Part shown: positions 1 to 42,353 of the stretch, one piece after another
Numbering within the stretch: position 1 is the stretch's first letter
How the letters are laid out: each line of letters begins with the position of its first letter
Assembly: GCA_020532545.1 (NCBI GenBank)
Contig: JAJBAW010000022.1
Coordinates: 1-43,018, forward strand
DNA: 43,018 nucleotides
Direction: 5' to 3'
Source: Candidatus Cloacimonadota bacterium
GTDB taxonomy: Bacteria > Cloacimonadota > Cloacimonadia > Cloacimonadales > Cloacimonadaceae
Program-made: the position numbers and the translations under genes
The notes under the pieces: model-generated
Seen by the model: the letters and a program-made list of their open reading frames with translations, nothing else
Database searches by the model: none
What the model was told of the DNA's origin: nothing

Positions 1-855
1 TGCCTACACAAGGCACAAAATCCAGAATTCTCAAACGATATTGCCCAAGAAACGATCTGCCGCCTGCTAAAATCGCAGAATCGCATCAATGAGATTACAA
101 ACTGGGTGAAAAGCGTGGCGCATAACCTTCTCTGCGAGCACTATGGAACCGAAAAAGATGAACAGGCTCTATATCAAGACTTGCAGATTGAGGGGGAGCT
201 AATCCATCAGCTCTCGAATAATTCCAGCAAGATAGGTCTTGCAGAATGTCTTCATGTAGTTCCAGAATCGATACTCCATAATCAAAACTACAAATCCTAT
301 AGCAAGCTGAAAGAATATGACAGCCTGCAAGCTTACGCCGAAGCCAATAAGCTTGGCTACGAAGCAGCGAAAAGCAGGAGTAAGAAACTTATCAAGAATC
401 TTAAAGCCGAGATTCTGCTTGCTATGGGCTGGCAAGCAAGCCCGGATATACTTGATTACAATCAATATAAAGCGATCCAAAGCTTTATCCGAAAACTCTT
501 GGATTTGAGCACTGCCACCAAGGAAGGAACAAACGAAGCTTTATCCAAGCTGCACCCTGACCTTCCCCAAGTTCTGACTGGCTATACGAGTGTAGAAGAC
601 TGGGGGATTACTATGATTTCAGAGCGGAGGTTCCGGCTCTACCTCTATCATTTAAGTTCTGAGCAGGCTCACCTGATGACCACGATTTTTATTAACATCG
701 GCAAACGAAACCATGTGCAGGTGGAAAACTGCAAAATAAACAAATATGCAGGATCACACAATATTAGTGCTAAAGCTCACATACCAAAGCAGATGGGGGC
801 TGCACTCTGGTCTTACGAAAAAATTATTTCTCTGCTAAACGAAAATAGTCGCTAA
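1..855 (+). CDS. Sigma-70-like regulator, module 1 (5'-truncated by window edge)
   Basis: The reading frame is open from base 1, and its first codons (CLHKAQNPEF) match the internal part of the full copy at 7274-8371, so the first 81 residues lie outside the window. What remains covers the end of a sigma region 2-like segment (DIAQETICRLL, then TNWVKSVAHNLL), a region 4-like helix-turn-helix (QAYAEANKLGYEAAK) and an unknown C-terminal domain (WGITMISERRF to WSYEKIISLL). It differs from the full copy at four residues (G/R, A/D, R/K, F/I). Known: this architecture resembles ECF sigma factors. Inferred: it directs transcription of the peptide and exported proteins that follow. The gene ends 22 bases before a conserved palindromic element. 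The sigma assignment is from motif resemblance only. Confidence 0.72.
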   Translation, partial: CLHKAQNPEFSNDIAQETICRLLKSQNRINEITNWVKSVAHNLLCEHYGTEKDEQALYQDLQIEGELIHQLSNNSSKIGLAECLHVVPESILHNQNYKSYSKLKEYDSLQAYAEANKLGYEAAKSRSKKLIKNLKAEILLAMGWQASPDILDYNQYKAIQSFIRKLLDLSTATKEGTNEALSKLHPDLPQVLTGYTSVEDWGITMISERRFRLYLYHLSSEQAHLMTTIFINIGKRNHVQVENCKINKYAGSHNISAKAHIPKQMGAALWSYEKIISLLNENSR

Positions 856-877
856 TCTACAACCCCCATTTCCTGCA

Positions 878-902
878 TTTTGACACTATATATATAGAGA
901 CT
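878..902 (+). promoter_or_regulatory. Conserved 25-bp element with palindrome CTATATATATAG, module 1
   Basis: The element reads TTTTGACA, then the perfect 12-bp palindrome CTATATATATAG (886-897), then AGACT. It is identical at 8394-8418 and 39814-39838, always between a sigma-like gene and a 69-aa peptide gene, with the palindrome ending 24-26 bases before the peptide start. Identity in the diverged third module, where the surrounding intergenic bases are not conserved, argues for function. It may be the promoter recognised by the sigma-like factor, or an operator. TTGACA at 880-885 has no TATAAT-like hexamer 17 bases downstream, so I do not read it as an ordinary housekeeping promoter. Confidence 0.65.
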
Positions 903-923
903 GAAATTTTAAGGAGTATCAAA

Positions 924-1133
924 ATGAAGAAACTTGCTATTACTGGCTTGCTGTTGCTTGTATTGCTAAATATGCTGTTTGCAGCCATGGATTACACTAT
1001 GCTTGATCCGCTTTCGCTTCCGACTTATACTGGACCGCTGAGTAGTCCAGAAGTAAAAATAGTGTATGAGGACGCTAATGGTGAATACATACTCGTCGAA
1101 ATTGATGGGCAGTTGCATGCCTTCTATTTGTGA
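924..1133 (+). CDS. 69-aa exported peptide, module 1
   Basis: Small protein with a clear signal peptide (MKK, a long leucine-rich core, LFAA around residues 18-21) and a mature part of about 48 residues containing DYT, LPTYTGPLS and VKIVYEDANGEY. I do not recognise the family. It has a good ribosome site (AAGGAG, 910-915) and follows the conserved palindromic element. Compared with the copy at 8440-8649 it has eight nucleotide differences and all are synonymous, which shows selection on the protein. The third copy (39858-40067) has exactly the same length and keeps DYT, YTG, VKIVYED and a final YL. It leads an operon of exported proteins. Possible roles are a sensor or regulator of export, or a surface peptide; nothing in the sequence decides this. 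Confidence 0.85.
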   Translation: MKKLAITGLLLLVLLNMLFAAMDYTMLDPLSLPTYTGPLSSPEVKIVYEDANGEYILVEIDGQLHAFYL

Positions 1134-1180
1134 TTCTGAATTATTTGATTAAGCAATAAAAACGCAAGAAGGTTCAAAAC

Positions 1181-2212: not shown

Positions 2213-2228
2213 GCTCATGGAGGAAAAC

Positions 2229-5200
2229 ATGAAAGCTATTGTTTTGTTTTGCCTGATGCTCTGTGCGGTTTTAGGACTATATGCAGAGTATGCACCTCAA
2301 TCTATCTTGTTTAGTTCTTATGACGTTATTGAATCCATCACACAGTATTCCGATTCGCTCTATACTGATTGTGGATGGTTCAATGCTCTATCCGGTAAGC
2401 ATTATATCCACTATCTTGAATCACTCTACGATTATCAAGACAATGGAATTGGCGTTTACTGCTATTATATCAAATACAAAGATGAAGCAAGCGTGGAATC
2501 TATGATTGCGCTCTTTGAATCGGAAAACAAAGTTACCGTGGCAGAACCAAATTGTTATTTTGAGCCATTTAACGACCCACTTATCAATAACCAATGGGCT
2601 TTGCCAACTATCAAGATGGATCAGGTATGGAATCAATACTCGTATTACGGTGATAACATCGTAGTGGGAGTGGTGGACTCAGGAATTGACTTGGGCTTAA
2701 ATGATCCAACTGCACTGTTTTATGGACAAATCCACCCCGATCTGGAGGATAATCTCTATACCGATGCCAACGGCCATCATGGCTATAATGCTTATGCTAT
2801 TGAAGATCCAGACCAATATCTATATAATGTCCAAGATGAATTTGGCCATGGCACCCATGTTGCCGGAATAATCGGAGCCAGAAAGAATAACGGTTACGGT
2901 ATCAGCGGTATAGCTGGAGGCAACGCCGGAACCAATACAGCAGGATGTCAGATCTATTCGGTTAAGGTTGGCGGTACATTTGATAGAAGGAATTATCCGG
3001 CTTCTGCCATTATAAGGGGGATCAGAAATGCACATAGAAATGGCGTCAGGATATTCAATTGCAGTTTTGGTGCATCCAGTAACCAAGTTACACAATTGAG
3101 CACTCAAATTAATCTTTTGAGCGATCCTGCCTCACTTGACCCAGCAATGTTTGTTTGTTCAACAGGTAACGGCTATGTGGAAGCAAGTAACTACCCTGCT
3201 GCATTGCCATATACTATCAGTGTGGCAGCCACAGCCTCAGATGATTCTAAAGCTATGTATTCAACATATCACTCTACAGTGGACATAATTGCTCCTGGTG
3301 GCGGTGGAGGACACGGTGATTCTAGTGGTGTTTTATCTACTATGCCAAGAGATGATTTGTTTTATTATCATACTCATGGAGGTTATAACCCTGAATTTGA
3401 ATACGCCAGTGGAACTTCGATGGCAGCACCGATGGTTACTGCTGCCGTTGTCTTGGTGAAACAAGCACATCCAAATTTGACTCTCCCGGAGATACAACAG
3501 AGAATTATCGGTACTGCCGACGATGTGTCTCAAGCTAATCCCGATCTGAAATATATCGGCAAACTTGGCGCAGGCAGGCTGAACGTGTTGAGAGCTATTG
3601 CAACAGTAAGTCCACATGCCACGCTTCGCTTAAATAGTATTACAGCCAATAACAATGATTTTATCGCGTGCGGCGGACAATCAATGGGATTAAATATTGG
3701 ACTGAAAAATTGGTGGGCTTCCGCTCAAGGCAGTGTCTCCGGGATTCTTCATACTTCAGACCCAAACATCAGCATTTCAAACAACTCTGCGCTCTTTACG
3801 CATCTTGGACAAAACGCCGAAGACCTTTATAGCGCATCCTTCCAAATCAGTGACACTTCAATAATGCCAGGGTATGCCGAATTCAGTCTTGAGCTGACCT
3901 ATGATAACATAACTGAAACACTATATTTTAAAATACCCCGACGCATTGACCTATTAAATACTAAAATCGAAATTGCCAATCGGGCTGCAATCACTGAAAT
4001 GGTGATAAGCGACATGAATGGCAATGGCCAAGATGAAATAGCCTTTATTACTGAAGAAAACAATAACAAATACCTGTGTCTATTAAAAAGCGGAGTAGTT
4101 CATGAAGTGAGTCTTCGCGGAAGCTGTGCTTTAAGGCCAGCCTTGGCTGATATGGACTACGATGGAATTCAGGATATTGTGCTCTTTGATGATTTAGGGC
4201 AATTGATAATATATGATTATGATCTGAACCAGCTTCATGAATCAAGGATATCTGTTCCGGGAGAGATAAAATCATATGTAATCGAAGATCTGAATGACGA
4301 CGGCAGTCTAGATATTGCAGTTGCACATGAAGATGCCGGTGTTTGGAGAGTTAGTATGTTGATATTCAACGATAATGGAATCTATGATTTTGACCTATAT
4401 ACTCATTCTCTTGACCCGGGACGTAGTATCATTTCTCCGTTAGCAGTTGGCGCTGTTGACAATACTCCAAATAACGATATTGTTTGGGTTCAAAGCAATT
4501 ATGTTCCTGGCAGTAGCGTAAACATTGTTACGAGATTAGTTAAGCTGACATATGTAGAGAGTAGAGCAGAAAAGTTTAAAATTGATTCTGGAACTCTGGA
4601 CGAAGTAGTGTGGGGAATCGACTCGATCACAAATTATGGCTGCACTGAATTGATTCTGAGCAGGCCGCATCCTGAAGAATCTCAATTTAGAAGAGCTTAC
4701 ATTTATGTTGGAATAGGATACACACGAATGTTTGGCATTCCCTACATCGAAGGCCAAATTGGTCAATATGCCACTAAATGTATTGACTTCTGCTATGGCT
4801 ATAATGAAGTATGGGTTCATGCGCTTTCTGACAATCCGTCGAACACTTCACAGATAGCCCAGCGAGCATACAAAATTATTGCTGGAGACTTCATAGAATC
4901 AAACCCAGGGGTCGAGATTCTTGTAGGCGCTACGGAAGAAATCTTAGACTCAGAAACTGGTGATTTTATTCAGTATATAAGGAATGATTATCTTCCACTT
5001 ACCTCGCCACCAATCTACCTCAGTAAACATTATCAACCTACTGTAATCACAGATTATAACAATAATGGCATTAAAGATGTGTTTGTTTACAAAGGTGGTG
5101 ATATTCACGGATTTGATGCAAACCATAATAAAATCGACTTGTATAGCTATACTTTGCCACAGAACCAGTTAATCATGTCTTTAGTAGCAGGTAATGCAAG

Positions 5201-6875
5201 AGATTTTCATGTACAAGACCTGTATGCTATGGCAACATACAATGGCGACAGCTATGTCTATTACATTCCGATTTCATCTCATCATGAAAGATTCTATTAT
5301 GATTGGAGACAATTCAGCAATAATGCTCGTAAAACTTGCGAGTATCTACAAGCTCTGCCAGCAGTCGTAAGTATCAATACCTTGCTATGGAATCATTGTG
5401 AAATTGATAAGGATATTCTAATTGATAATAGCCTAATAATTTCCCAAGGCACACGTGTCAAGTTTAGAGGGTCTACCTCATTGATAGGACATGGAGAATT
5501 TGTTGCTGATGGAAATCAAAGTTATCCAATTTCAATTAGTGGTATGTGCCCGAAATATCTTCCTGGATATTGGAATGGAATATCTATGCATAGTTCATCA
5601 ACTATGGGATTACGTTATGCTGAGTTGTCGAATGCTTGCGCAGCAATTGATTTATATAATGCCGGAAGTAACATTATATCATTCAGCAAATTCTTCTCAA
5701 ACCAGTATTCTATAAGATTATACAGTGCACTGCTTGATATGTGGCACACTGAAATAAAGAAATCAGTGACCGGAATAGCAGCTTTCAATAACTCTGATTT
5801 AAACTTAGGATACTCAACGGGATCAAACAATATATCGTTTAACCGAACTGGCATCTATTCGCATGAATCTTCACCTTACTTAGATGAAGGCTGTAATGAT
5901 ATTAATAATCCCGGATTACAAAGTTGGAATATCTTCTCTGTGAATACGCCCGATGGAATAAAGGCTCAGTCAAACTGGTGGGGGAACGATGGCTACGATC
6001 CACCTTACATTGAGAGAACCTTTAATGAACCGGATATCATAACGTATGCTCCATTCCTGTTAACGTCCAATGTCGATGCGAAACAAGGCAAATCTCAGTC
6101 TGACTTTATGATTGCAGAGGCATTAAGATGTGATGAGCAATGGGCTCAAGCTATTCCCTACTACGAAACGGTAAACTCTGATAATACAATGGGGCCAGAA
6201 ACATATATGTCAGTAAATGGGCTCTTCAAATGCCATCAGGAACTTAATAGCCTGAGCAGTCATAAGACGTGGCTGCTTACAAAAATAAGCAATAGCACCG
6301 AAAGCTCTTATAACAAGTATCTTCTAAATAATCTTGCTATGGCGAATCGTGTGTTAGGTGATTTCCAAGAAGCTCTTGATTATTATGAGAGTATTCTTGA
6401 TAATATTCCAAGTTATGCTGATTCTTGCTACGCAATAATCGATATTGGATTTACTTGGTTGGAATCGAATAATCGAATGTACGGCAAATATGCATCCCTG
6501 CGCCCAAGATCAATAAATGATCATCTAACGGCCTCTAATAGACTCTTGAATTCGATATTATTAGATGAGCCAATGGAAAGCTATACTGAAATTCCTAGTC
6601 TTCCTCAAATCAATGCAAACTACCCCAACCCGTTCAATCCCTCGACGACTATCGTATACAGCGTTCCCCAAAAAGCTGGAGTTAGGTTGGATGTTTACAA
6701 TGTTAAAGGCCAGAAGGTTAAAACATTGATTAATTCAGAGCTTGAAAAGGGACAGCATCAAGCAATTTGGAATGGTAGAGATGATAAGAACTGCGGTGTA
6801 GCCTCTGGTGTATATTTTATCCGCCTGGAAACTGCAGGAAAAGCAAGCATGGGAAAAATGCTGTTGATGAAATAG
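2229..6875 (+). CDS. S8 subtilisin-like protease mosaic with FG-GAP, beta-helix, TPR and FlgD-like sorting domain
   Basis: 1548 residues counted from the ATG at 2229. That start is preferred over the in-frame ATG at 2217 because GGAGG at 2219-2223 then sits just upstream. Order of parts: signal peptide (about 1-19), a propeptide-like region, and the S8 catalytic domain with Asp150 (VDSGID), His207 (GHGTHVAG) and Ser397 (GTSMAAP) all intact. Then come a beta-sandwich linker, FG-GAP/VCBS-like repeats (about 590-1000; DMNGNGQDE, DLNDDGSLD), a right-handed beta-helix region (about 1050-1280), TPR-like helices (about 1290-1415) and a FlgD-like sorting tail (NYPNPFNPSTTI to MLLMK). It is probably an active surface or secreted endopeptidase; the substrate is unknown. 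It is the last gene of module 1 and is followed by a strong terminator. Confidence 0.9.
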   Translation: MKAIVLFCLMLCAVLGLYAEYAPQSILFSSYDVIESITQYSDSLYTDCGWFNALSGKHYIHYLESLYDYQDNGIGVYCYYIKYKDEASVESMIALFESENKVTVAEPNCYFEPFNDPLINNQWALPTIKMDQVWNQYSYYGDNIVVGVVDSGIDLGLNDPTALFYGQIHPDLEDNLYTDANGHHGYNAYAIEDPDQYLYNVQDEFGHGTHVAGIIGARKNNGYGISGIAGGNAGTNTAGCQIYSVKVGGTFDRRNYPASAIIRGIRNAHRNGVRIFNCSFGASSNQVTQLSTQINLLSDPASLDPAMFVCSTGNGYVEASNYPAALPYTISVAATASDDSKAMYSTYHSTVDIIAPGGGGGHGDSSGVLSTMPRDDLFYYHTHGGYNPEFEYASGTSMAAPMVTAAVVLVKQAHPNLTLPEIQQRIIGTADDVSQANPDLKYIGKLGAGRLNVLRAIATVSPHATLRLNSITANNNDFIACGGQSMGLNIGLKNWWASAQGSVSGILHTSDPNISISNNSALFTHLGQNAEDLYSASFQISDTSIMPGYAEFSLELTYDNITETLYFKIPRRIDLLNTKIEIANRAAITEMVISDMNGNGQDEIAFITEENNNKYLCLLKSGVVHEVSLRGSCALRPALADMDYDGIQDIVLFDDLGQLIIYDYDLNQLHESRISVPGEIKSYVIEDLNDDGSLDIAVAHEDAGVWRVSMLIFNDNGIYDFDLYTHSLDPGRSIISPLAVGAVDNTPNNDIVWVQSNYVPGSSVNIVTRLVKLTYVESRAEKFKIDSGTLDEVVWGIDSITNYGCTELILSRPHPEESQFRRAYIYVGIGYTRMFGIPYIEGQIGQYATKCIDFCYGYNEVWVHALSDNPSNTSQIAQRAYKIIAGDFIESNPGVEILVGATEEILDSETGDFIQYIRNDYLPLTSPPIYLSKHYQPTVITDYNNNGIKDVFVYKGGDIHGFDANHNKIDLYSYTLPQNQLIMSLVAGNARDFHVQDLYAMATYNGDSYVYYIPISSHHERFYYDWRQFSNNARKTCEYLQALPAVVSINTLLWNHCEIDKDILIDNSLIISQGTRVKFRGSTSLIGHGEFVADGNQSYPISISGMCPKYLPGYWNGISMHSSSTMGLRYAELSNACAAIDLYNAGSNIISFSKFFSNQYSIRLYSALLDMWHTEIKKSVTGIAAFNNSDLNLGYSTGSNNISFNRTGIYSHESSPYLDEGCNDINNPGLQSWNIFSVNTPDGIKAQSNWWGNDGYDPPYIERTFNEPDIITYAPFLLTSNVDAKQGKSQSDFMIAEALRCDEQWAQAIPYYETVNSDNTMGPETYMSVNGLFKCHQELNSLSSHKTWLLTKISNSTESSYNKYLLNNLAMANRVLGDFQEALDYYESILDNIPSYADSCYAIIDIGFTWLESNNRMYGKYASLRPRSINDHLTASNRLLNSILLDEPMESYTEIPSLPQINANYPNPFNPSTTIVYSVPQKAGVRLDVYNVKGQKVKTLINSELEKGQHQAIWNGRDDKNCGVASGVYFIRLETAGKASMGKMLLMK

Positions 6876-6943: not shown

Positions 6944-6985
6944 GAATACGGGCACGGTCATCTGATCGTGCCCGTATTCATTTTG
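6944..6985 (+). terminator. Rho-independent terminator after the subtilase gene
   Basis: A perfect 13-bp GC-rich stem (GAATACGGGCACG at 6944-6956 with its complement at 6967-6979) has a 10-base loop and is followed by ATTTTGTG. The stem can extend into AAAATGA/TCATTTT with a two-base bulge. It closes the module 1 operon. Confidence 0.85.
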
Positions 6986-7100: not shown

Positions 7101-7129
7101 TTGACAGAAAGATAATCCATTTGTAAGAT
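7101..7129 (+). promoter_or_regulatory. Sigma-70-type promoter upstream of module 2 regulator
   Basis: TTGACA (7101-7106), a 17-base spacer and TAAGAT (7124-7129) make a near-consensus housekeeping promoter. It lies about 145 bases before the chosen start of the sigma-like gene. The rest of 6986-7273 shows no convincing gene. Confidence 0.6.
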
Positions 7130-7273: not shown

Positions 7274-8371
7274 ATGAAACAGGATGCACTGCCAATAAGC
7301 AAAGAAATCTATAATGAAATCGTCGCTTGTGTGATCGATATGGTTCAAAGCAACTTTGAAAATCTGAACATATCAAAAGACGCAGCAAACTGTGTTTTGG
7401 TCAGATTCTTAAATGCTCCACCATCGACAGATGACGCTATAGTCCAGGTTCAGGCTATGTATTCAAAAGTAATTGAAGAACTTTTTGCTTCATACCATAA
7501 GGTAGCATTTCAGTATTGCCTACACAAGGCACAAAATCCAGAATTCTCAAACGATATTGCCCAAGAAACGATCTGCCGCCTGCTAAAATCGCAGAATCGC
7601 ATCAATGAGATTACAAACTGGGTGAAAAGCGTAGCGCATAACCTTCTCTGCGAGCACTATCGCACCGAAAAAGATGAACAGGCTCTATATCAAGACTTAC
7701 AGATTGAGGGGGAGCTAATCCATCAGCTCTCGAATAATTCCAGTAAGATAGGTCTTGCAGAATGTCTTCATGTAGTTCCAGAATCGATACTCCATAATCA
7801 AAACTACAAATCCTATAGCAAGCTGAAAGAATATGACAGCCTGCAAGCTTACGCCGAAGACAATAAGCTTGGCTACGAAGCAGCGAAAAGCAAGAGTAAG
7901 AAACTTATCAAGAATCTTAAAGCAGAGATTCTGCTTGCTATGGGCTGGCAAGCAAGCCCGGATATACTTGATTACAATCAATATAAAGCGATCCAAAGCA
8001 TTATCCGAAAGCTCTTGGATTTGAGCACTGCCACCAAGGAAGGAACAAACGAAGCTTTATCCAAGCTGCACCCTGACCTTCCCCAAGTTCTGACTGGCTA
8101 TACGAGTGTAGAAGACTGGGGGATTACTATGATTTCAGAGCGGAGGTTCCGGCTCTACCTCTATCATTTAAGTTCTGAGCAGGCTCACCTGATGACCACG
8201 ATTTTTATTAACATCGGCAAACGAAACCATGTGCAGGTGGAAAACTGCAAAATAAACAAATATGCAGGATCACACAATATTAGTGCTAAAGCTCACATAC
8301 CAAAGCAGATGGGGGCTGCACTCTGGTCTTACGAAAAAATTATTTCTCTGCTAAACGAAAATAGTCGCTAA
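7274..8371 (+). CDS. Sigma-70-like regulator with unknown C-terminal domain, module 2
   Basis: 365 residues from the ATG at 7274, which has AGGTGG four bases upstream and aligns with the start of the third copy. An in-frame ATG at 7154 would add 40 residues without homology. Residues 77-130 resemble sigma region 2 (DIAQETICRLL, TNWVKSVAHNLLCEHYR) and 178-224 resemble region 4 with a helix-turn-helix (LQAYAEDNKLGYEAAK). Residues 275-360 form an extra domain (DWGITMISERRF, IPKQMG, LWSYEKIISLL) that I do not recognise. That domain is the best conserved part against the third copy. Canonical ECF factors end soon after region 4, so it may serve sensing or self-control. No anti-sigma gene is adjacent; the 69-aa exported peptide follows instead. 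Confidence 0.75.
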   Translation: MKQDALPISKEIYNEIVACVIDMVQSNFENLNISKDAANCVLVRFLNAPPSTDDAIVQVQAMYSKVIEELFASYHKVAFQYCLHKAQNPEFSNDIAQETICRLLKSQNRINEITNWVKSVAHNLLCEHYRTEKDEQALYQDLQIEGELIHQLSNNSSKIGLAECLHVVPESILHNQNYKSYSKLKEYDSLQAYAEDNKLGYEAAKSKSKKLIKNLKAEILLAMGWQASPDILDYNQYKAIQSIIRKLLDLSTATKEGTNEALSKLHPDLPQVLTGYTSVEDWGITMISERRFRLYLYHLSSEQAHLMTTIFINIGKRNHVQVENCKINKYAGSHNISAKAHIPKQMGAALWSYEKIISLLNENSR

Positions 8372-8393
8372 TCTACAACCCCCATTTCCTGCA

Positions 8394-8418
8394 TTTTGAC
8401 ACTATATATATAGAGACT
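8394..8418 (+). promoter_or_regulatory. Conserved 25-bp element with palindrome CTATATATATAG, module 2
   Basis: Same sequence as 878-902 and 39814-39838; the palindrome occupies 8402-8413. It lies 22 bases after the regulator stop and 26 bases (palindrome end) before the peptide start. Confidence 0.65.
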
Positions 8419-8439
8419 GAAATTTTAAGGAGTATCAAA

Positions 8440-8649
8440 ATGAAGAAACTTGCTATTACTGGCTTGCTGTTGCTTGTATTGCTAAACATGCTGTTTGCAG
8501 CTATGGATTACACAATGCTTGATCCGCTTTCGCTTCCGACTTATACTGGGCCGCTGAGCAGTCCAGAAGTAAAAATAGTGTATGAAGACGCTAACGGTGA
8601 ATACATACTCGTCGAAATTGATGGGCAGTTGCATGCATTCTATTTGTGA
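8440..8649 (+). CDS. 69-aa exported peptide, module 2
   Basis: The protein is identical to the one at 924-1133 although the genes differ at eight positions, every one at a third codon position and silent. Signal peptide about 1-20, then a short mature region with VKIVYEDANGEY and an aromatic C-terminus (HAFYL). Ribosome site AAGGAG lies eight bases upstream of the ATG. Unlike module 1, it is followed by a 237-base leader before the next gene. Family and function unknown. Confidence 0.85.
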   Translation: MKKLAITGLLLLVLLNMLFAAMDYTMLDPLSLPTYTGPLSSPEVKIVYEDANGEYILVEIDGQLHAFYL

Positions 8650-11394: not shown

Positions 11395-11406
11395 GAAAAC
11401 TAAATA

Positions 11407-11437
11407 GTATGGAGCGGTGACATATACCGCTCCATAC
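11407..11437 (+). other. Intercistronic hairpin, copy 1
   Basis: A perfect 12-bp stem (GTATGGAGCGGT, 11407-11418, with its complement 11426-11437) is followed by CCCAAAAAG rather than a T run. It lies 20 bases before the next start codon. Lacking a U tract, it is more likely an RNA-stability or attenuation element than a full terminator. Confidence 0.6.
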
Positions 11438-11457
11438 CCAAAAAGAATTGAGGTAAG

Positions 11458-13848: not shown

Positions 13849-13860
13849 GAAAACTAAATA

Positions 13861-13891
13861 GTATGGAGCGGTGACATATACCGCTCCATAC
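13861..13891 (+). other. Intercistronic hairpin, copy 2
   Basis: Same 12-bp stem as at 11407-11437 (arms 13861-13872 and 13880-13891), duplicated with the unit and again placed about 20 bases before a start codon and without a T run. Confidence 0.6.
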
Positions 13892-13910
13892 CCAAAATAA
13901 TTGAGGTAAG

Positions 13911-16301: not shown

Positions 16302-16396
16302 GATGCTCAAGCATAATCTCCAAACAAGCCGGAGACTGGCTCCCTTCTTTTGCACAAAAAACTTGACTCCAAGCAAGTCTTTGATAAAGGTGAGTC

Positions 16397-17746
16397 ATGA
16401 AGAAAATCCTTTTTGCGGCATTAAATAGCAGTTGGAGTCAATCCAATCTGGCCTTTTACTATCTCAGGGAAATGATCCGGGATTTGGACTACGAAAGCAT
16501 CTTGAAATCCTACACCTTAAAAGAGCCCCTGATGCAGGTGATGGATGATATCTATCTGCAGCAGGCGGAGATCATCTGCTTTTCGGCTTATATCTGGAAT
16601 AGGGTCTTTTTGCAGAGTCTGCATCGGGAACTCGGCAAGATCTTACCGGAGGCTATCTTTGTGATCGGCGGGCCGGAAGCCGGGCATTTTAAGAACATCA
16701 AGAATACCATGGTGATCGAAGGTGCGGGAGAAGCGGCTTTTAGAGAGCTGGCACTAAAGGACTTTTCGCTCAAAGATGGCGCTCAGCTCTGTGCAAACCC
16801 ACTGCCTCTGAATAAGGTTCCTTTCCCTTATCGGGAAGAAGACAAAGTCGATCTGGAAGATCATCTGGTCTATTACGAATGCTATCGAGGCTGTCCTTAT
16901 CACTGTGCATATTGCCTTTCGGCCAATGACAATCGGAACGAACCCAGATTTGAGCTGCCCCAGGACAAGGATCTGCTCTATCAGGAACTGGATACAATCT
17001 GTAAACTAAGACCCCGCACCATCAAGTTTATCGACCGCAGTTTCAATGTGCAAAAGGACCTGGCTCAGGCGATCTGGCACTATGCTATCCAGCACGGGGA
17101 GGGACAGGAATTTCACTTTGAGATCTATCCTGATCTCTTGGATGAACAGGATCTCAAGATCATGGAGCAGGCACCAGAAGGCAGAATCCGCTTTGAAGTA
17201 GGGATTCAGAGTATAGATCCCAAGGTGCTGGAGAGCTGTGGCCGGTATTCCGCTTGGGAGAAGAGTAAAGCCGCCTTGATCGCTTTGAAAGCAAGGACCA
17301 GTATCCGCATACATGCAGATCTCATCGCTGGCTTGCCAGGAGAAGATTATGATTCGGTGCTGCGCGGGCTGGATGAGCTCTGCGCTTGCGAGCCAGCCGC
17401 TGTGCAATTGGGCAGTTTGAAAATCCTGCCCAATACGCCGATGCAAGCGATCGCCAAAGCCAAGAATTACCTCTGGCTGGACAATCCACCCTATCAGGTA
17501 CTGGCATCAGATGCGCTGTCTTTCGAGGAAATGGGTAGCTTGGACGATTTTGCCCATCTGCTGAGTTTGTATTGGAATAAGGAAGAATATCCTGAGCTCT
17601 GGCATGAGCTATTGCAGAAATACCCGGCTTCAGAGATTCTCACTGCTTTAAAGGATATACATATCAAGAATGATATGCCTCTGCACAGCATCTCCAAAAA
17701 GCGGCGGGCTGAGGTGATGGAGATTTTGTCAGATCGCTTGCTTTGA
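16397..17746 (+). CDS. B12-binding-type radical SAM protein (DUF4080-like C-terminus)
   Basis: 449 residues. Residues 1-125 look like a cobalamin-binding-type Rossmann domain (ICFSAYIWN, FVIGGPEAGH, VIEGAGEAAFREL). The radical SAM domain follows, with the cluster motif Cys166-x3-Cys170-x2-Cys173 (CPYHCAYC), then IKFIDRSFN, RFEVGIQS and HADLIAGLPGE, which are typical SAM-binding strands. The C-terminal 80 residues resemble the DUF4080 tail of this subfamily. The reaction is unknown; family members include methyltransferases and cyclases. It is a single gene in plus orientation after the exported-protein cluster, with AAAGGTGAG as ribosome site. Its richer GC and absence of a signal peptide suggest it belongs to the housekeeping part. 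Confidence 0.85.
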   Translation: MKKILFAALNSSWSQSNLAFYYLREMIRDLDYESILKSYTLKEPLMQVMDDIYLQQAEIICFSAYIWNRVFLQSLHRELGKILPEAIFVIGGPEAGHFKNIKNTMVIEGAGEAAFRELALKDFSLKDGAQLCANPLPLNKVPFPYREEDKVDLEDHLVYYECYRGCPYHCAYCLSANDNRNEPRFELPQDKDLLYQELDTICKLRPRTIKFIDRSFNVQKDLAQAIWHYAIQHGEGQEFHFEIYPDLLDEQDLKIMEQAPEGRIRFEVGIQSIDPKVLESCGRYSAWEKSKAALIALKARTSIRIHADLIAGLPGEDYDSVLRGLDELCACEPAAVQLGSLKILPNTPMQAIAKAKNYLWLDNPPYQVLASDALSFEEMGSLDDFAHLLSLYWNKEEYPELWHELLQKYPASEILTALKDIHIKNDMPLHSISKKRRAEVMEILSDRLL

Positions 17747-17757
17747 GGGGGGGGGGT

Positions 17758-17963
17758 GCTGGATTGGATACGTCTCGTGTCCAGTGAAACCTACAAGTTA
17801 CAAGTTACAAGTTACAAGTTGCCAGGGCTGGATTGGATACGTCTCGTGTCCAGTGAAAACTACAAGTTACAAGTTGCCAAGGCTGGATTGGATACGTCTC
17901 GTGTCCAGTGAAAACTACAAGTTACAAGTTGCCAGGGCTGGATTGGATACGTCTCGTGTCCAG
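17758..17963. repeat. Nested tandem repeats: four 55-bp-type units with internal 7-bp repeats
   Basis: Four units start at 17758, 17827, 17882 and 17937, each opening GCTGGATTGGATACG then TCTCGTGTCCAGT. Periods are 69, 55 and 55 bases; the first unit is 14 bases longer because the inner 7-mer ACAAGTT occurs four times instead of two. Each unit can fold GGATACG-TCT-CGTGTCC. The array follows a run of ten G (17747-17756) just after the radical SAM stop codon. It is not CRISPR: the pieces between the repeats are themselves repeats. Confidence 0.9.
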
Positions 17964-32943: not shown

Positions 32944-33834
32944 ATGAATATCTGGATACAAAAACACCTTGAGCAGCTCAGTATAGAGGGCAAAAGCCCG
33001 CGCACGATAGAGGGCTACCGCATTGATCTACAGCAGTTTGAGGACTATCTGGAGAATGAACTGGGCAGCTTCCCGATCGCTGAAATCTCCCATATACATA
33101 TTCGTGGCTTTTTGCGCTGGCTTTCTGAGCGGCCGGATGGCAATCGCACGCTTTCCCGAAAACTTTCAGCTTTGTCCACATGGTTCAAATATCTCAAAAT
33201 CCAGGGGCAGATACAGGACAATCCCATGCGCAAAATCCGCCGTCCCAAATTTGAACCGAAACTGCCCAAGTTCTTTTCGGAAGAAGAGATGCAGGCACTG
33301 CTGCGGATACCCGATACCAGCAGCAAGTTTGGCCTGCGCAACCGGGCGATCTTGGAGCTGCTCTATAGCTGCGGTTTGCGTTTGATGGAGCTGGCCGGGC
33401 TCAGGCTGAGCGATATCGACCAGCGCAAAAAGCTGATCCGGGTGATCGGCAAAAGCAATAAACAGCGGCTGATTCCGATAGGTTCTTTTGCCTTGGATAG
33501 CCTGAACAAGTACTTGGCATTGCGCCCCGACTTTGTTACAGAAGAGAGCTCGGACAAGGTCTTCCTCACCCGCAATGGCAAGAATTTTGACTCCAAGCAG
33601 CTCAGGACTATCCTCATGCGCTATATAGCTTTGATCGCCCGCGAAAAAGGCTATTCGCCGCACACCATCCGACATTCCTTTGCCACCCATCTTTTGTCGC
33701 ATGGCGCAGATATTGAGGCTATTCAGGCAATGCTGGGCCACGTAGACCTATCCACCACTCAGATTTACACTCAGCTCAGCCTTGCAGATATCAAAGAAGC
33801 TTATGAAAAAGGGCATCCCAGAAGCGGGGAATAA
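32944..33834 (+). CDS. Tyrosine recombinase, XerC/XerD family
   Basis: 296 residues, the usual Xer length. The N-terminal SAM-like DNA-binding domain is about 1-90 (SPRTIEGYRIDLQQF). The catalytic set is complete: Arg146 (CGLRLMEL), Lys170 (GKSNKQR), His240 and Arg243 (HTIRHSFATHLL), His266 (GHVDLSTTQ) and the nucleophile Tyr275 (IYTQ). Xer proteins resolve chromosome dimers at dif; no partner xer gene or dif-like site was recognised here. There is no phage gene beside it, so a housekeeping role is more likely than a prophage integrase. XerC and XerD cannot be told apart from sequence alone. Confidence 0.9.
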   Translation: MNIWIQKHLEQLSIEGKSPRTIEGYRIDLQQFEDYLENELGSFPIAEISHIHIRGFLRWLSERPDGNRTLSRKLSALSTWFKYLKIQGQIQDNPMRKIRRPKFEPKLPKFFSEEEMQALLRIPDTSSKFGLRNRAILELLYSCGLRLMELAGLRLSDIDQRKKLIRVIGKSNKQRLIPIGSFALDSLNKYLALRPDFVTEESSDKVFLTRNGKNFDSKQLRTILMRYIALIAREKGYSPHTIRHSFATHLLSHGADIEAIQAMLGHVDLSTTQIYTQLSLADIKEAYEKGHPRSGE

Positions 33835-34761: not shown

Positions 34762-34776
34762 TACTCTTCCTTTTTA

Positions 34777-37197: not shown

Positions 37198-37644
37198 TTA
37201 ACGGCAACGGCGACAGTGGCGGCAACCGCGTACAAAGCAGTCTGCCAAAGAAAGGATTTTCTCCGAGCCACAAGCGCTGCAAACCGTGGGTTTATCTTCA
37301 TCCAGCAGTAAGCTCATGCGATGCATACAAGCTTCGCATTGAAAAAAATTGCGAGCCATACGCACGTCTCCACCCTCGATCAAAAAGCTGCGACCTTCCA
37401 CCAGTGCGGTACTGATTTTGATGCGCGCGCTATTGTAAATACGAGTCACAGTGGGGCGTGAGACGTTCATCATCTCAGCCACTTCTTCGTGGATTTTCTT
37501 CTCATAATCGATCAACCGCAATACCTCGTATTCTTCGAGCTTGAGGATCACCGCCTGACGGTAATTCGCCCTCATCGAAAGTGGGCGGAAGCCCTTTACT
37601 ACCGGCATATCATGCAGGGTCCGTAAAGTTTTGGCTCTGGGCAT
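37198..37644 (-). CDS. DUF134-family HTH regulator with cysteine-rich tail
   Basis: 148 residues from the ATG at 37644 (MPRAKTLR), preceded by AAGGAG; upstream in-frame ATGs lack a ribosome site. DUF134 signature: VVKGFRPLS, then ILKLEEYEVLRLIDYE and a helix-turn-helix (HEEVAEMMNVSRPTVTRIYNSAR, about 52-74). The last 46 residues hold eight cysteines: 103/106, 122/125, 136, 141/144/147. That is enough for two metal or cluster sites, so the protein may sense Fe-S status. As first gene of the ORP-like operon it is its likely regulator, and a dyad lies just upstream. Confidence 0.85.
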   Translation of the reverse strand: MPRAKTLRTLHDMPVVKGFRPLSMRANYRQAVILKLEEYEVLRLIDYEKKIHEEVAEMMNVSRPTVTRIYNSARIKISTALVEGRSFLIEGGDVRMARNFFQCEACMHRMSLLLDEDKPTVCSACGSEKILSLADCFVRGCRHCRRCR

Positions 37645-37678
37645 ATTGTCTCCTTGTAGTCTAATTTCACTGACGTAT

Positions 37679-37891
37679 TCAAGTGAACTTATGTTCATTA
37701 ACTTGGACCCCCTGTTTTTTGTCAAGCTCGATCTTTGGTCTTTTTATTTTTGAGTACTGTCTCTCCGATGTTTGTACTTGATCACTGAAAACTGCAAATC
37801 TGATCATCCTATAGAATGATTGCCAATAAGCATCACTGATGGCTTGGGTGATTCTGCTACGTTCGGACTGGAACTTCTCAAGTGCGGTCAT
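37679..37891 (-). CDS. Hypothetical small protein in phage-derived remnant
   Basis: 70 residues from an ATG that overlaps the stop of the preceding small gene as ATGA. The longer in-frame start at 37930 would overlap that gene by 43 bases. Sequence begins MTALEKFQSERSR; it is charged and helical, with no recognised family. Its 3' end overlaps the promoter proposed for the DUF134 gene, which makes expression as a real gene less certain. Confidence 0.35.
   Translation of the reverse strand: MTALEKFQSERSRITQAISDAYWQSFYRMIRFAVFSDQVQTSERQYSKIKRPKIELDKKQGVQVNEHKFT
37685..37725 (-). promoter_or_regulatory. Putative promoter and operator of the ORP-like operon
   Basis: On the minus strand TTGACA (37725-37720), 17 bases, then GTTAAT (37702-37697). 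Directly downstream is the dyad TGAAC-n4-GTTCA (37684-37697). This would place a dyad at the transcription start about 40-50 bases before the DUF134 gene, a good site for autoregulation. Confidence 0.45.
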
Positions 37892-38013: not shown

Positions 38014-38020
38014 AGTATCG

Positions 38021-38678: not shown

Positions 38679-39779
38679 GTGCTAAAAAATGATGTGCAAG
38701 ACCTCAGCAGAGCCATGTACGATGAGATCATTAGGTGTATTCAAGATGAAAGCCTACAGAGCTTTAAGTTTTTGAATATATCTGACGATATTGCCAACAC
38801 TATCCTTATTCGATTGTTAAAAGACTCAATATCGGAAAGGCACGTAGGCTTAACGCAAGCGTATGTAAACTCAGCATATCCAAAAGCAATTGAAGATGTA
38901 TTTGATTACTACCAAAAAGTATCCCTTCATTATTCGCTGTCCAAAACACAGGATCCAGAGCTTTCAAAGGCTGTCTCTCAGGAAGCAATCCACCTGTTAC
39001 TTACATCAAGAAACTACATAAAGGATATTTATACGTGGCTAAAGCAACTAACGCAAAACTTGCTCTGCAAGCACTATAGGTCCATCATGCAGCAAAAAGG
39101 ACTCTATGATTCTCTTTGCCGAGAGACTGAGTTAGTCAGGAAATTGATGTGTGCACATAACACAATACAAATAGAAGGTCTTGATCCCATCCTGAAAAAA
39201 GAAATCCTCACCACCAAAGAATATAAAGAATTTGAAGCTATTGCATCCTTCGATAAGATAAGTGATTATGCTACTCATCTGAATGTTAGCCACGCAGTGG
39301 CTCAAAAAAGGAAAGACAGGATTGTAAAGAATCTGAGATCAAGGTTGCTGCTTGCGATGGGCTGGGAAGCTGGAAGGGACATCTTGAACTACAATCAGTA
39401 CAATGCGATCCTCAAATTCATCAGAAGCATCCAGAAGATAGGTAAAAGTAGCGACATTCGAGGCACAAGCTCAAATTCACTGGCTCAGACAGACGAAATC
39501 CTGAAAGTAATGCAGGGAATCACCCGAATCGACGATTGGGGGATCACGATGATCGGTAACAGAAAATTCAGATTTCACATCTTTCATCTGACGCCAGAGA
39601 GAAAACCAATTATCGCTACTTTCATCATAAGCTTGAACGAAAGGAACCATGTTAGCATAAAGAGCTGCAAAAGAGATGAAATAGTTGGAATTCACCCAAT
39701 ACCTGCTAACGTGCAGATACCCAAGGAGATGGGCAGATCACTCTGGTCTTATGAGAAAATTATTTCACTGCTGAAGTAA
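38679..39779 (+). CDS. Sigma-70-like regulator with unknown C-terminal domain, module 3 (diverged)
   Basis: 366 residues, GTG start with AAGGGAG six bases upstream. The ribosome site can pair GGGA-GTA-TCCC, which would half-hide it. It aligns from end to end with the 365-aa copy at 7274-8371 but is clearly diverged. Sigma region 2-like: DPELSKAVSQEAIHLLL, DIYTWLKQLTQNLLC; region 4-like: ISDYATHLNVSHAVAQKRKDR. The strongest matches are LLAMGWEA, ILNYNQYNAI, DWGITMIGNRKFRF, IPKEMG and SLWSYEKIISLL, so the extra C-terminal domain is the most conserved part. The same conserved 25-bp element and 69-aa peptide gene follow. Function as a transcription factor is inferred. Confidence 0.75.
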   Translation: MLKNDVQDLSRAMYDEIIRCIQDESLQSFKFLNISDDIANTILIRLLKDSISERHVGLTQAYVNSAYPKAIEDVFDYYQKVSLHYSLSKTQDPELSKAVSQEAIHLLLTSRNYIKDIYTWLKQLTQNLLCKHYRSIMQQKGLYDSLCRETELVRKLMCAHNTIQIEGLDPILKKEILTTKEYKEFEAIASFDKISDYATHLNVSHAVAQKRKDRIVKNLRSRLLLAMGWEAGRDILNYNQYNAILKFIRSIQKIGKSSDIRGTSSNSLAQTDEILKVMQGITRIDDWGITMIGNRKFRFHIFHLTPERKPIIATFIISLNERNHVSIKSCKRDEIVGIHPIPANVQIPKEMGRSLWSYEKIISLLK

Positions 39780-39813
39780 AATATCTTCGATTCTGGCATC
39801 TTAGTTTCGCCAT

Positions 39814-39838
39814 TTTTGACACTATATATATAGAGACT
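39814..39838 (+). promoter_or_regulatory. Conserved 25-bp element with palindrome CTATATATATAG, module 3
   Basis: Identical over all 25 bases to 878-902 and 8394-8418 although the flanking genes are diverged. Palindrome at 39822-39833, 24 bases before the peptide ATG, and 34 bases after the regulator stop. Confidence 0.65.
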
Positions 39839-39857
39839 AATTTCAAGGAGTGACAAA

Positions 39858-40067
39858 ATGAAAAGAATCATGCTTTACGTAGTGTTGGTTGTAGTGAGTC
39901 TTAACTTGCTTTGTGCAGTTATTGACTATACGGCCATTAATCACCAAACTCTACCCGTCTATACTGGTTCATTGAGCGATCCCATCGTTAAAATTGTGTA
40001 CGAAGACCAGAACGGCCAGTACGTTTTTGTCGAATATGATGGAGTTTTGTATGTTTGCTACCTGTAA
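39858..40067 (+). CDS. 69-aa exported peptide, module 3
   Basis: Same length as the module 1 and 2 peptides and about half identical to them. Signal peptide about 1-20 (MKRIMLYVVLVVVSLNLLCA), then DYT, LPVYTGSLSDPIVKIVYED, NGQY, VE-DG and the closing YL. The conserved set (DYT, LP-YTG-LS, VKIVYED, NG-Y, VE-DG, YL) marks a real family. The Cys near the cleavage site is not in a good lipobox and is absent from the other copies. Ribosome site AAGGAG. Confidence 0.85.
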   Translation: MKRIMLYVVLVVVSLNLLCAVIDYTAINHQTLPVYTGSLSDPIVKIVYEDQNGQYVFVEYDGVLYVCYL

Positions 40068-40113
40068 ACGCATTGACTCCAAGGCTACAACATCACTTCA
40101 TATAGGAGGAATG

Positions 40114-41775
40114 ATGAAGAAACTAATATTGTACATTTCGGCGATCCTGATGATCGTCTTGCTCGGACCGCTTTCGGCCCAAAATAATCACCTTGATGTA
40201 ATGACCTACATGAGTGGTGAATTTGGAGGCTGCGAATTTGGAGAATCCATAGCCAGCCTGGATTGTATTGGCGATGGATATATGGACTTGGTGGTGTCGT
40301 CTGGTGCCTGGAATCCCAATCTGGTTTTTGCCGATCAAAACCGCTGGGGTAAGCTTTATTTCTACTGGGGAGGCCCAAATTTCGATAACATCCCTGATTT
40401 TGTTATCCCCGGGGCTTACAATTGGCAGATGGGGCCTTATGCCAGTGTTTTCAACGGAGGGGACATGAATGGAGATGGAATTGATGATCTCATAATGTTC
40501 CAAAGATCAGCTACTTACGATAACAATGTTGCGTTGTTCTTTGGTAGAGCAAATCCCCATAATTCGCCAGACATCTTACTAACATACTCGTATAATTCAG
40601 GCACAGGAGTGAATAGTGTAGCTATTATACCTATCGGAGATATCAACGGTGACAATCAAGATGACATTTGCCTAGTGTTATATTATGCAGTTGGCTCAAA
40701 AGAAGTGTGTGTCTGGACAGACTATTTAGCCCAACCATGGCTTTTTAGGCAAACAATAAACAGCCAATCAATACCCCGATTATCCGGCATAGGCGATGCA
40801 AACAATGACGGCTTTGATGACACTTTGTTACACATCTCGAATAATCCCTCGGGAGGGACTCATAACAGGCTAGTGCTATACTATGGCAGCCCGACATTCC
40901 CCCAAACTGACAGCCTAACCATCTGTGAGGATTCTAATAGTATTATAAAGAGTTGGGCTTGTCCGCTGGGAGATGTAAATGGAGATGGATATGATGATTT
41001 CTCGGCTGGGAGCCAGGTGTATGATTATTCCCAGCATTTATGGCTGGGTGGTGAGGTGATTACGGAAAACTGGAGCCTTGATCTGTCAGCCGCTTATCCA
41101 CCTCCTCCAAGTTACATCAGCGAACGGGGCAGCGGTTATCCCATGGTGCATGGGGACCTGAATGGAGATGGCTATCAGGATGTGATAGGTTTCGATCATG
41201 AAGCAGGATATTACAGCGGATACTTGTACATCTGGATGGGCAGCTCTGCCATGAACGGATCACTGGATTTTGTAAGTCTGGGAATCACAAACTACGATAA
41301 CAGGAATTATGGCTGGTCAAAGGCGACTGGTGACTTTAATGCCGATGGCTATTGTGACATTGCAGTGGGTGCCCCTTGGTTTGGGCCACTAAGTAATCAC
41401 AATTCCACTGGTAGAGTCTATATCATGGCTGGTAATGCCGATCTGCACGAGACTACTGTCGCTAATTCTGATGAGACTGCTCCTGTTTCTAATGTCGAGG
41501 AATGGCACACTGATATCTATCCCAATCCAGTAACCATTCAGGAACCAGAATTCAGCATCTTATTCAAAGGCTCTGGATACAAAGCCACAGGCAGATATCG
41601 CTTGGAAATGTATAACATAAAAGGGCAGAAATTGTTATCGCAAGCCATCCATATGGAAGACATAAAAGACGGTGGTCTGAGTCTTGAGTCTGGCAAATTG
41701 CCAAAGGGAGTGCTCATCATATCCATTTCAAAAGATGGTATTCCGGTAAGCACAAGAAAATTAACCAATTACTAA
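40114..41775 (+). CDS. Exported FG-GAP beta-propeller protein with Por-type sorting domain
   Basis: 553 residues from the ATG at 40114; AGGAGGA lies only one base before the alternative ATG at 40111. Signal peptide about 1-20 (IVLLGPLSAQ). Seven Ca-binding-type loops with the pattern D-x-N/G-x-D-G-x-x-D are spread over the body (DCIGDGYMD, DMNGDGIDD, DINGDNQDD, DANNDGFDD, DVNGDGYDD, DLNGDGYQD, DFNADGYCD), as expected for a seven-bladed integrin-like propeller. The last 85 residues are a Por-type sorting tail (IYPNPVTIQE, EMYNIKGQKLL, LPKGVLIISI). Probably a surface-exposed binding protein. It stands 46 bases after the 69-aa peptide. Confidence 0.85.
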   Translation: MKKLILYISAILMIVLLGPLSAQNNHLDVMTYMSGEFGGCEFGESIASLDCIGDGYMDLVVSSGAWNPNLVFADQNRWGKLYFYWGGPNFDNIPDFVIPGAYNWQMGPYASVFNGGDMNGDGIDDLIMFQRSATYDNNVALFFGRANPHNSPDILLTYSYNSGTGVNSVAIIPIGDINGDNQDDICLVLYYAVGSKEVCVWTDYLAQPWLFRQTINSQSIPRLSGIGDANNDGFDDTLLHISNNPSGGTHNRLVLYYGSPTFPQTDSLTICEDSNSIIKSWACPLGDVNGDGYDDFSAGSQVYDYSQHLWLGGEVITENWSLDLSAAYPPPPSYISERGSGYPMVHGDLNGDGYQDVIGFDHEAGYYSGYLYIWMGSSAMNGSLDFVSLGITNYDNRNYGWSKATGDFNADGYCDIAVGAPWFGPLSNHNSTGRVYIMAGNADLHETTVANSDETAPVSNVEEWHTDIYPNPVTIQEPEFSILFKGSGYKATGRYRLEMYNIKGQKLLSQAIHMEDIKDGGLSLESGKLPKGVLIISISKDGIPVSTRKLTNY

Positions 41776-41786
41776 AGGAGCTTAAG

Positions 41787-42353
41787 ATGTTTAACACGCA
41801 AATGAAATTCGGTTTATGTGTTGTTTTCGCGTTATTTCTCTCTTTAATCGGAGCGGAAAGTTTTGACCAATATCCCATGGGTTGTTATACGTATATGTCT
41901 AACAGAAATTGGGGGAATAATTATACGGAAGCAGAAAGAGCACAAATCTTAGCATTGATAAGCGATATGGGCTACAATGTAGCTCAAATTGATAATAGAG
42001 ATGGGGATGGAACTTTTGGAGATATGCTAACTATGCTGAGCAATAATGATTTATATGCTATAGTTAGTGATTTGTACTATCCCTACCATTGGATTTCCGG
42101 TTCAGATGTAAACTACAATCGATACAATACTAACGCATTAACAACCAGCAGTTATTTGAAGCTTGAAGCAGAGTATTCGGGTAATAGTGATATCGACGGG
42201 GGCTCGAAAGATATCAATTGGTACTGCTCCCATGCTGAACACGTTGGCAACATGCCGAGAGTGGGTGCAGACTTTCCAGATAATACGCAGAGAACCTGGA
42301 AATGCACTCGCGGTACCACTAATCCCGGATTTGCCTTTACTGATATCCGGTAG
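41787..42353 (+). pseudogene. Exported protein truncated by a rearrangement
   Basis: The frame begins with a good ribosome site (AAGGAG) and a signal peptide (about 1-24, LFLSLIGAES) and continues with MGCYTYMSNRNWGNN, AQILALISDMGYNVAQIDNRDGDG, a pattern that could be the start of a glycoside-hydrolase-like barrel. It stops at residue 188, just past the point near 42342 where the sequence turns into an ABC ATPase in another frame. No sorting tail is present, unlike its neighbours. I therefore read it as the 5' part of a broken gene, the second exported-protein gene of module 3. Confidence 0.7.

Follow-up and report, generated by a model that had tools for sequence, protein, structure and literature searches.

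The stretch of DNA analysed here (the window) is a contig of 43,018 nt (C27) from a Cloacimonadota genome of 3.04 Mb in 154 contigs. By our reading of its open reading frames (ORFs), the window holds three units on the forward strand, each of which runs from the gene of a regulator resembling sigma factors of the extracytoplasmic function (ECF) type through a 25-bp element and the gene of a 69-aa exported peptide to genes for exported proteins. An original prediction, made from the sequence alone, had claimed this order in three places, and both the ORFs and their order were confirmed when the window was read again. Three units are indeed present, but copies 1 and 2 are 98% identical, that is, recent duplicates, and therefore not independent of each other.

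Copy 1 starts inside the regulator gene (1-855), the 5' end of which is lost at the contig start. Behind it lie a candidate -35 box, ACCCCCAT (862-869), the left arm of a hairpin, TTTTGACACT (878-887), which is the first part of the 25-bp element, and a candidate -10 box, CTATATATATAG (886-897), in the remainder of the element; both boxes come from the bipartite motif search described below, and the same -35 string precedes the peptides of relatives. The right arm of the hairpin (915-924) overlaps the Shine-Dalgarno sequence and the A of the start codon of the peptide gene (924-1133), with 9/10 pairs and a C.A mismatch. In copy 2, a regulator gene for 365 aa (7274-8371; a longer ORF opens at 7154) is followed by the candidate -35 (8378-8385), the 25-bp element with the left arm and the candidate -10 (8394-8418), the right arm over the ribosome-binding site (8431-8440) and the peptide gene (8440-8649), and the intergenic stretch, right arm included, is identical to that of copy 1. 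Copy 3 has a regulator of 366 aa (38679-39779), a weak candidate -35, GGCATCTT (39795-39802), assigned with a low score by analogy with a related locus (L052), the element with left arm and candidate -10 (39814-39838), a right arm (39849-39858) with 9/10 pairs and an A.A mismatch, and the peptide gene (39858-40067). The element thus has the same sequence at 878-902, 8394-8418 and 39814-39838. Since the regulators of copies 2 and 3 are only 38% identical and yet all 25 bp are common to both, the shared element is more than chance. We found no terminator between regulator and peptide in the window copies.

For the regulator we used two profiles, one made from 55 members and a narrower one made from five regulators of the same genome. 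The former matches the ECF sigma factor SigW (5wuq) from sigma2 to sigma4 (positions 61-217, E = 1.7e-10), as well as other ECF chains, which supports the predicted assignment as a sigma factor at the level of sequence. Pfam Sigma70_r2 is present in 41 of the 55 regulators and Sigma70_r4_2 in two (E <= 0.01), and NCBIfam ECF models match up to 52/55 at E <= 0.01, with scores below the model cut-offs in the member shown. The AlphaFold2 model of copy 2 is confident (mean pLDDT 91.6) and consists of helices followed by a C-terminal alpha/beta domain of about 140 residues, so that the additional domain, proposed earlier as foreign to ordinary ECF factors, is seen in the model. No consistent Pfam family was found for this domain in 44 members, nor any Pfam SnoaL match at E <= 0.1. 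Foldseek gave weak NTF2-like, MlaC-like and VirB8-like similarities for it (best E = 0.028; several NTF2-like at query TM 0.3-0.44), and no match below 0.001 either for the whole regulator or for the domain. Judging from these matches, we take the regulator for an ECF sigma factor that has an additional C-terminal domain; its predicted functions are RNA polymerase binding and promoter choice. In another genome (G013, C144:3498-3875), a frame of 137 aa matches the C-terminal domain only (positions 241-365), without the sigma part.

The peptide gene lies either in tandem behind the regulator gene or divergent from it. We searched 57 non-redundant peptide upstream sequences for a two-block motif; an earlier search had partly locked on the Shine-Dalgarno sequence and was rerun with that region excluded. 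The motif found is GTCACaat, 13-19 nt, ATATAT, with a log-likelihood of 156 versus 35-55 in four mononucleotide-shuffled sets (24 restarts for the real set, 8 for each shuffled set). GTCACA occurs in 11 of 30 divergent upstream sequences (0.24 expected), and the -35 candidates of tandem loci are related strings such as ACCCCCAT and GTCTCCAT. A motif score of at least 9 was reached before 23/57 peptides versus 1/59 regulators, where the scoring matrix was trained on the peptides and the regulator starts are approximate. While the 25-bp element does recur as predicted, it is not primarily a palindrome: from its sequence, it is better read as the end of the spacer, the -10 region and the left arm of the hairpin. 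A palindromic operator was considered and dropped, as AGTGTC at the ribosome-binding site is the pairing partner of the GACACT part, and loci without GACACT have a -10-like block with which the TATATA part aligns.

Given 16 sequences of the GACACT group, RNAalifold returned exactly this stem unprompted, with three of eight pairs changed on both sides. The stem cells are paired in 93.8% of cases; the covariation score was reached by 0/500 shuffles and lies above that of every slid register, and the number of pairs with a change on both sides was reached by 3/500. At the corresponding position, remote tandem loci carry stems unrelated to this one (L096, L102, L104, L109 and L110, p 0.01-0.02 for each in shuffling tests), such as AAAAAAGACATCTTTTC/GAAAAGATGTCTTTTTT and ACATAAAAACCTC/GAGGTTTTTATGT. 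A stem with p <= 0.05 was found in 11/31 tandem versus 4/32 divergent loci. The mean z of the upstream complementarity to the ribosome-binding site was -1.43 for tandem loci (31), -0.65 for divergent loci (32) and -0.07 for controls (104 genes), tandem loci differing from controls with p = 6e-7 and from divergent loci with p = 0.013. When the RNA was started at -22 instead of -75, the opening of -14..+3 rose by at least 0.3 in 8/34 tandem loci and 1/32 divergent loci (Mann-Whitney p = 0.0027, with three hairpin-selected loci, C137, C15 and L057, included); all eight large tandem gains are among the other 31 loci. In the stem, complementarity and RNA-opening counts, L054 is left out (it has no usable start codon), L102, with its peptide between two regulators, is counted as tandem to the upstream one, and copies 1 and 2 are both included. 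A strict hairpin pattern has ten occurrences in the 124 genomes of the phylum, all adjoining a regulator gene or its remnant (nine directly after the regulator, one 367 nt on, behind a first peptide), and none in the reversed control. The prediction that divergent loci would have no hairpins held only in part, as hairpins are enriched in tandem loci and not exclusive to them.

Two further arrangements were seen at the hairpins of other loci. In L061, two successive hairpin-peptide starts (1061-1112 and 1389-1440) lie behind one regulator, the second peptide being a remnant. Within a single intergenic region of L098 (2256-2555) and of L097 (663-977), two promoter-like stretches that resemble each other were seen by eye. 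The left arm AACCTCT is present in the L098 stretch before the peptide and absent from the one after the regulator, a natural comparison for the hairpin model.

We then looked at how far the regulator and the peptide occur together. The five-regulator profile has matches in 53 of the 124 genomes (E <= 1e-6). The 55-row profile matches at least 95 genomes at 1e-10, many of the weaker rows covering sigma2-sigma4 only, like ordinary ECF factors, and the peptide profile matches 63 genomes at E <= 0.01, with a weak tail resembling general signal peptides. When named genomes were scanned with the regulator profile, a search that extends no further than close relatives, eight loci came up (9/84 candidate stretches), all of them in metagenome-assembled genomes named as Cloacimonadota or Cloacimonetes. 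The neighbours were read for 99 regulator ORFs reaching the C-terminal domain (matches short of position 280 were left out): 32 have their nearest peptide in tandem and 32 have it divergently, one (the second regulator of L102) has a peptide that lies between two regulators, and 34 have none within 900 nt. Fourteen of the 99, to which 12 of the 32 divergent loci belong, come from loci fetched for a peptide match, and most of these 14 also match the regulator profile. With the 14 omitted, a peptide gene lies no more than 900 nt from 53 of 85 regulators (32 in tandem, 20 divergently, the remaining one between two regulators). Of the 64 regulators flanked on each side by 500 nt or more of sequence, 44 have a peptide in this range (27 in tandem, 17 divergently) and 20 have none. 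The two genes are thus not found mostly apart, in agreement with the predicted linkage. A peptide profile trained on tandem loci matched 60/1256 small ORFs near regulators versus 16/4141 others, and of these 16, 15 are from loci fetched for a peptide match and one is the C15 copy described below. Some regulator matches lie outside the fetched loci (e.g. G006:C393, G035:C11, G075:C155 and G073:C575). Where a fetched stretch has a peptide and no regulator, the sequence before the peptide remains similar and sometimes includes the hairpin (L148, L156), and a terminator-like stem closes some of the regulators that have no peptide (L065-L067).

In its own genome the regulator has seven matches: the three in the window, one each on C74, C145 and C137, and a decayed fragment on C15. 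Behind every one, GACACT...AGTGTC or a sequence very like it spans a ribosome-binding site. C137 lacks the peptide, and its hairpin sits directly on a cargo gene of 429 aa; on C145 the reading frame of the peptide is destroyed; on C15 the element and the peptide are intact next to the decayed regulator. The 18-bp core of the element occurs exactly four times in the 3.04-Mb genome, each time adjoining a regulator gene or remnant, and with three mismatches allowed it is found in three further places (one overlaps the copy 3 element) versus five for the reversed control pattern. Between copies 1 and 2, 10 of 852 nt differ in the regulator, none in the intergenic stretch and 8 of 207 nt in the peptide gene, and their identity stops about 6 nt past the peptide stop codon. 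Copy 3 and the C15 copy are likewise similar through the peptide and unrelated directly after its stop codon. What the members of either pair have in common thus extends as far as the peptide, with different cargo behind it. This loss of identity at the peptide stop codon, seen twice, supports the predicted cassette behaviour: cassettes have been copied between loci, with different cargo after the peptide.

The peptide itself has a hydrophobic N-terminus and a mature part of about 45-50 aa. One branch conserves a stretch LPxYTGxLxDP, a C-terminal pattern Y(I/V)xVExDGxxY recurs, and column G62 is nearly invariant. The proteins of copies 1 and 2 are identical, all eight codon changes between their genes being synonymous. 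The peptides of copy 3 and C15 differ by 7 synonymous and 9 non-synonymous codons, and strict conservation can therefore be stated for copies 1 and 2 only. The family had been called unfamiliar, and we were not able to place it either: a Pfam scan gave no family, Por_Secre_tail was found in 0/28 peptides, and the search of PDB gave nothing usable. The best PDB match (0.023) is probably to the signal peptide of a beta-lactamase, since it covers residues 1-63 of that protein.

The cargo of module 1 consists of a 343-aa protein with a C-terminal sorting domain (1181-2212, Por_Secre_tail 2.3e-6) and a 1552-aa subtilase with FG-GAP and sorting domain (2217-6875, Peptidase_S8 7.2e-46). Module 1 ends with a terminator-like stem at 6944-6979; one such stem was found where shuffles give 1.6, but this one has 16 pairs. 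Module 2 has three large cargo genes, for proteins of 835 aa (8887-11394), 796 aa (11458-13848) and again 796 aa (13911-16301). The first two have FlgD/Por_Secre_tail ends in the Pfam scan, which covered these two; the third is a copy of the preceding gene in the blocks compared. In module 3, an FG-GAP repeat protein (39994-41775 as listed, the real start being probably 3' of the peptide; FG-GAP 5.3e-23) has a weak sorting-domain match (E = 0.015). The end of this module is uncertain, because no Pfam family matches the 188-aa ORF at 41787-42353, which moreover overlaps an ABC-transporter ORF. Of the differing cargo that had been predicted, the subtilase and the FG-GAP protein were recovered, but not the beta-helix proteins: the two scanned proteins of module 2 have no Beta_helix match, and one has a pectinesterase match at 0.015. 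The second and third cargo genes of module 2 (within 11132-16338) are 99% identical in a 300-nt start block, and the ends of all three are 84-94% alike, so by their sequence these genes appear to be a recent local amplification.

Among 20 selected downstream proteins (mostly tandem, several from one locus, the L056 cargo left out), Por_Secre_tail was found in 13 (E <= 0.001), FlgD_ig in 11 and Beta_helix in 5, with single matches to subtilase, C25 and C10 peptidases. Exported cargo after the peptide, as predicted, is therefore what the tandem loci show in the form of sorting-domain proteins; in divergent loci, on the other hand, a response-regulator receiver domain was matched by 14 of 26 ORFs that come next behind the peptide (120 aa or more), so that the pair stands in a signalling context in these loci. 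CheY-like single receivers follow the divergent peptide in L105, L107, L157, L169, L172-L175, L177, L182, L190 and L191, and in L159 a PAS/kinase/receiver protein apparently does so. In the lineages with a CheY-like neighbour, this suggests phosphorelay control of the regulator-peptide pair.

Putting these observations together, we lean, somewhat beyond even chances, towards a model in which each unit is a self-contained sigma-factor expression cassette with a hairpin-gated promoter. We hold its sigma-promoter part more firmly than the model as a whole, and its gating part less firmly. The ECF sigma factor with its C-terminal, presumably regulatory domain would be made from its own promoter. 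Once active, it would direct RNA polymerase to the promoter between the regulator and peptide genes, with a -35 like GTCACaat or ACCCCCAT and a -10 like CTATATATAG. Sequence and covariation indicate that the spacer and the -10 also supply the left arm of a hairpin, with the right arm lying on the Shine-Dalgarno sequence and the start codon. Read-through mRNA from the sigma gene would have both arms, hide the ribosome-binding site and stay silent. As the left arm lies upstream of or on the -10, RNA initiated by the sigma factor would lack it and could be translated. The hairpin would thus make the peptide and cargo dependent on sigma activity despite the tandem genes without a visible terminator, and its likely purpose would be to keep the cargo off during transcription of the sigma gene itself. 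The peptide would be the first product and might report to, or belong to, the same signalling unit; that it probably does so is suggested by its staying with the sigma gene in two arrangements. Such cassettes would then be copied between loci with different cargo.

Several results weigh against this model. A sigma-70-like site upstream of copy 2 (7101-7129) does not exceed chance expectation (4 sites of this kind versus 6.3 expected), and none was found before copy 3. GTCACA is present in 0/27 tandem upstream sequences, the window contains no match to the strict divergent consensus (GTCACNNT, 13-16 nt, NATATAT), and copy 3 has a weak -35; the promoter of the window copies therefore rests on looser strings. 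With regard to the hairpin, the covariation term of RNAalifold is just -0.01 kcal/mol, the count of further pair types was reached by 53/500 shuffles, each of the three window stems has one mismatch, and copy 3 is predicted to be more open in the read-through RNA (0.55) than in the short one (0.38). About 9 of 31 tandem peptides have no convincing stem (L064, L074, L076, L077, L078, L081, L086, L087 and L089); these loci all have at least 140 nt from regulator to peptide, and the stem-bearing L093, L097, L098 and L104 have 196-308 nt. Stems are also found in the divergent loci L152, L155, L157 and L189, where read-through from the sigma gene is not expected, and complementarity differs between divergent loci and controls as well (p = 0.005). 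The p-values overstate independence because the sequences are related. Finally, no peptide lies within 900 nt of 32 of the 85 regulators, some peptides have no regulator close by (L145, L147-L150, L153 and L154), and the genomes G002 and G024 (about 80% complete) have the peptide and no regulator match.

Other explanations have to be considered for the same data. The unit may be an ordinary ECF system, in which an extended sigma factor drives one adjacent operon, the hairpin is of minor importance and the peptide is the first structural gene. This would fit the layout of ECF41, which is alike in its sole adjacent target, tandem or divergent, its -35 TGTCACA and its lack of an obvious anti-sigma gene (excerpts of PMC3426412), and also the Por_Secre_tail found in 13/20 of the selected cargo proteins. 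We regard it as fairly unlikely, given that compensatory changes keep the pairing, that the pairing is enriched in tandem loci, and that sigma gene and peptide remain together in loci where the cargo is replaced by a receiver-domain protein (14/26). If, on the other hand, the hairpin is part of the normal mRNA, with transcription starting upstream of the left arm, it could act as a switch that is opened by temperature, a metabolite, a protein or the regulator. The covarying stem that covers the ribosome-binding site, and the stems of a few divergent loci, are what such a switch would show, but a switch would need neither the ATATAT -10-like block in or beside the loop nor the -35-like block 13-19 nt upstream of it; moreover, no common ligand pocket is visible, as the stem and loop sequences vary between lineages. 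We consider an mRNA switch unlikely.

The inverted repeat could also be a DNA operator for a dimeric regulator that overlaps the ribosome-binding site only incidentally. All 16 members aligned for the main group have GACAC unchanged, and L089 and L091 have GACACT without a matching right arm, both of which an operator would explain. Nevertheless, the right arms stay on the Shine-Dalgarno sequence or start codon while their sequence varies (an overlap that the scan required), single G.U pairs occur and the arms are about 30 nt apart, which together make an operator the least probable of these explanations and, in our view, a poor one. More tentatively, the hairpin-gated cassette could be a new signalling pair, the peptide being a sensor or feedback for the C-terminal domain of the sigma factor (directly or via the receiver), the foldback promoter making the response all-or-none, and the whole being a portable switch before surface-protein operons. 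This is possible, and we would not put it higher than that.

The window has a few other features outside the modules. Four copies of a 55-nt unit with the core TGGATTGGATACGTCTCGTGTCCAGTGAAAAC lie at 17737-17970, between radical-SAM/B12 and DHDPS genes, and a gene for a recombinase of the phage integrase family (32944-33834) lies between modules 2 and 3. A DUF134/sigma-70 region 4-like protein (37198-37725), which is apparently unrelated to the modules, has a dinitrogenase-cofactor-like gene and MinD/4Fe-4S ATPase genes as neighbours.

If the model is true, it would provide a recognisable private-sigma expression cassette for a little-studied phylum, define a sigma-linked family of exported peptides without a Pfam match, and place a read-through-proof hairpin promoter of the phage T4 type on a bacterial chromosome. 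The rules for -35, -10 and hairpin make the prediction of cassettes testable, and the promoter could serve as a low-leak expression part. Folding of transcripts that start outside is also known from IS10 and IS50, where it blocks translation of the transposase; unlike there, no transposase was identified directly at the module boundaries examined. In the literature on Cloacimonadota sigma factors, type IX secretion and ECF factors or secreted peptides (titles and openings of abstracts), the regulator-peptide pair was not described. Extended ECF factors and foldback promoters are each known, and it is their union with a conserved exported peptide in a copied cassette that we did not find in the literature searched.

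Extended ECF sigma factors without an anti-sigma gene have been reported before (excerpts of PMC8999054 and PMC3426412). The groups ECF56, ECF205, ECF294 and ECF295 have a SnoaL-like C-terminal extension of 120-150 residues, the regulatory role of which is given as unknown (excerpts of PMC8999054). The extension of about 140 residues with weak NTF2-like fold matches resembles theirs as far as these excerpts describe it, whereas the lack of a Pfam SnoaL match in the 44 domains and the exported-peptide partner set our family apart. ECF41, studied in B. licheniformis and R. sphaeroides, has a fused C-terminal domain, no obvious anti-sigma factor and a sole adjacent target, in tandem or divergent, with -35 TGTCACA and -10 CGTC (excerpts of PMC3426412). 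The family described here shares with that account the fused domain, the lack of an obvious anti-sigma gene, the tandem or divergent adjacent target and, in 11/30 divergent loci, GTCACA. By analogy, this parallel supports, but does not prove, that the present sigma family uses the promoter found. In contrast to ECF41 as portrayed there, GTCACA is found in 0/27 tandem loci, the candidate -10 is ATATAT and not CGTC, the WLPEP motif of the sigma2-sigma4 linker is present in 0/55 regulators, and the presumed target is an exported peptide and not a carboxymuconolactone decarboxylase, oxidoreductase or epimerase (COE). No member of the COE family was found among the 20 selected tandem downstream proteins and the 26 neighbours of divergent peptides, on the peptide side.

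For the hairpin, the closest parallel is gene e (lysozyme) of phage T4. Its long early transcripts fold, hide the ribosome-binding site and are silent, while a late promoter, TATAAATA, in the region encoding the 5' strand gives a hairpin-free mRNA that is translated (excerpts of PMC3014915). In the modules, too, the ribosome-binding site is predicted to be paired in the long transcript, if imperfectly in the window copies. A -10-like block lies in the loop, and a transcript from this candidate promoter would lack the 5' arm. Unlike the phage gene of that account, the cassette is chromosomal, tied to an ECF sigma gene and copied before surface proteins, and it is known from sequence. In the way it is proposed to work, the cassette is like both ECF41 and T4 gene e, without being a member of ECF41.

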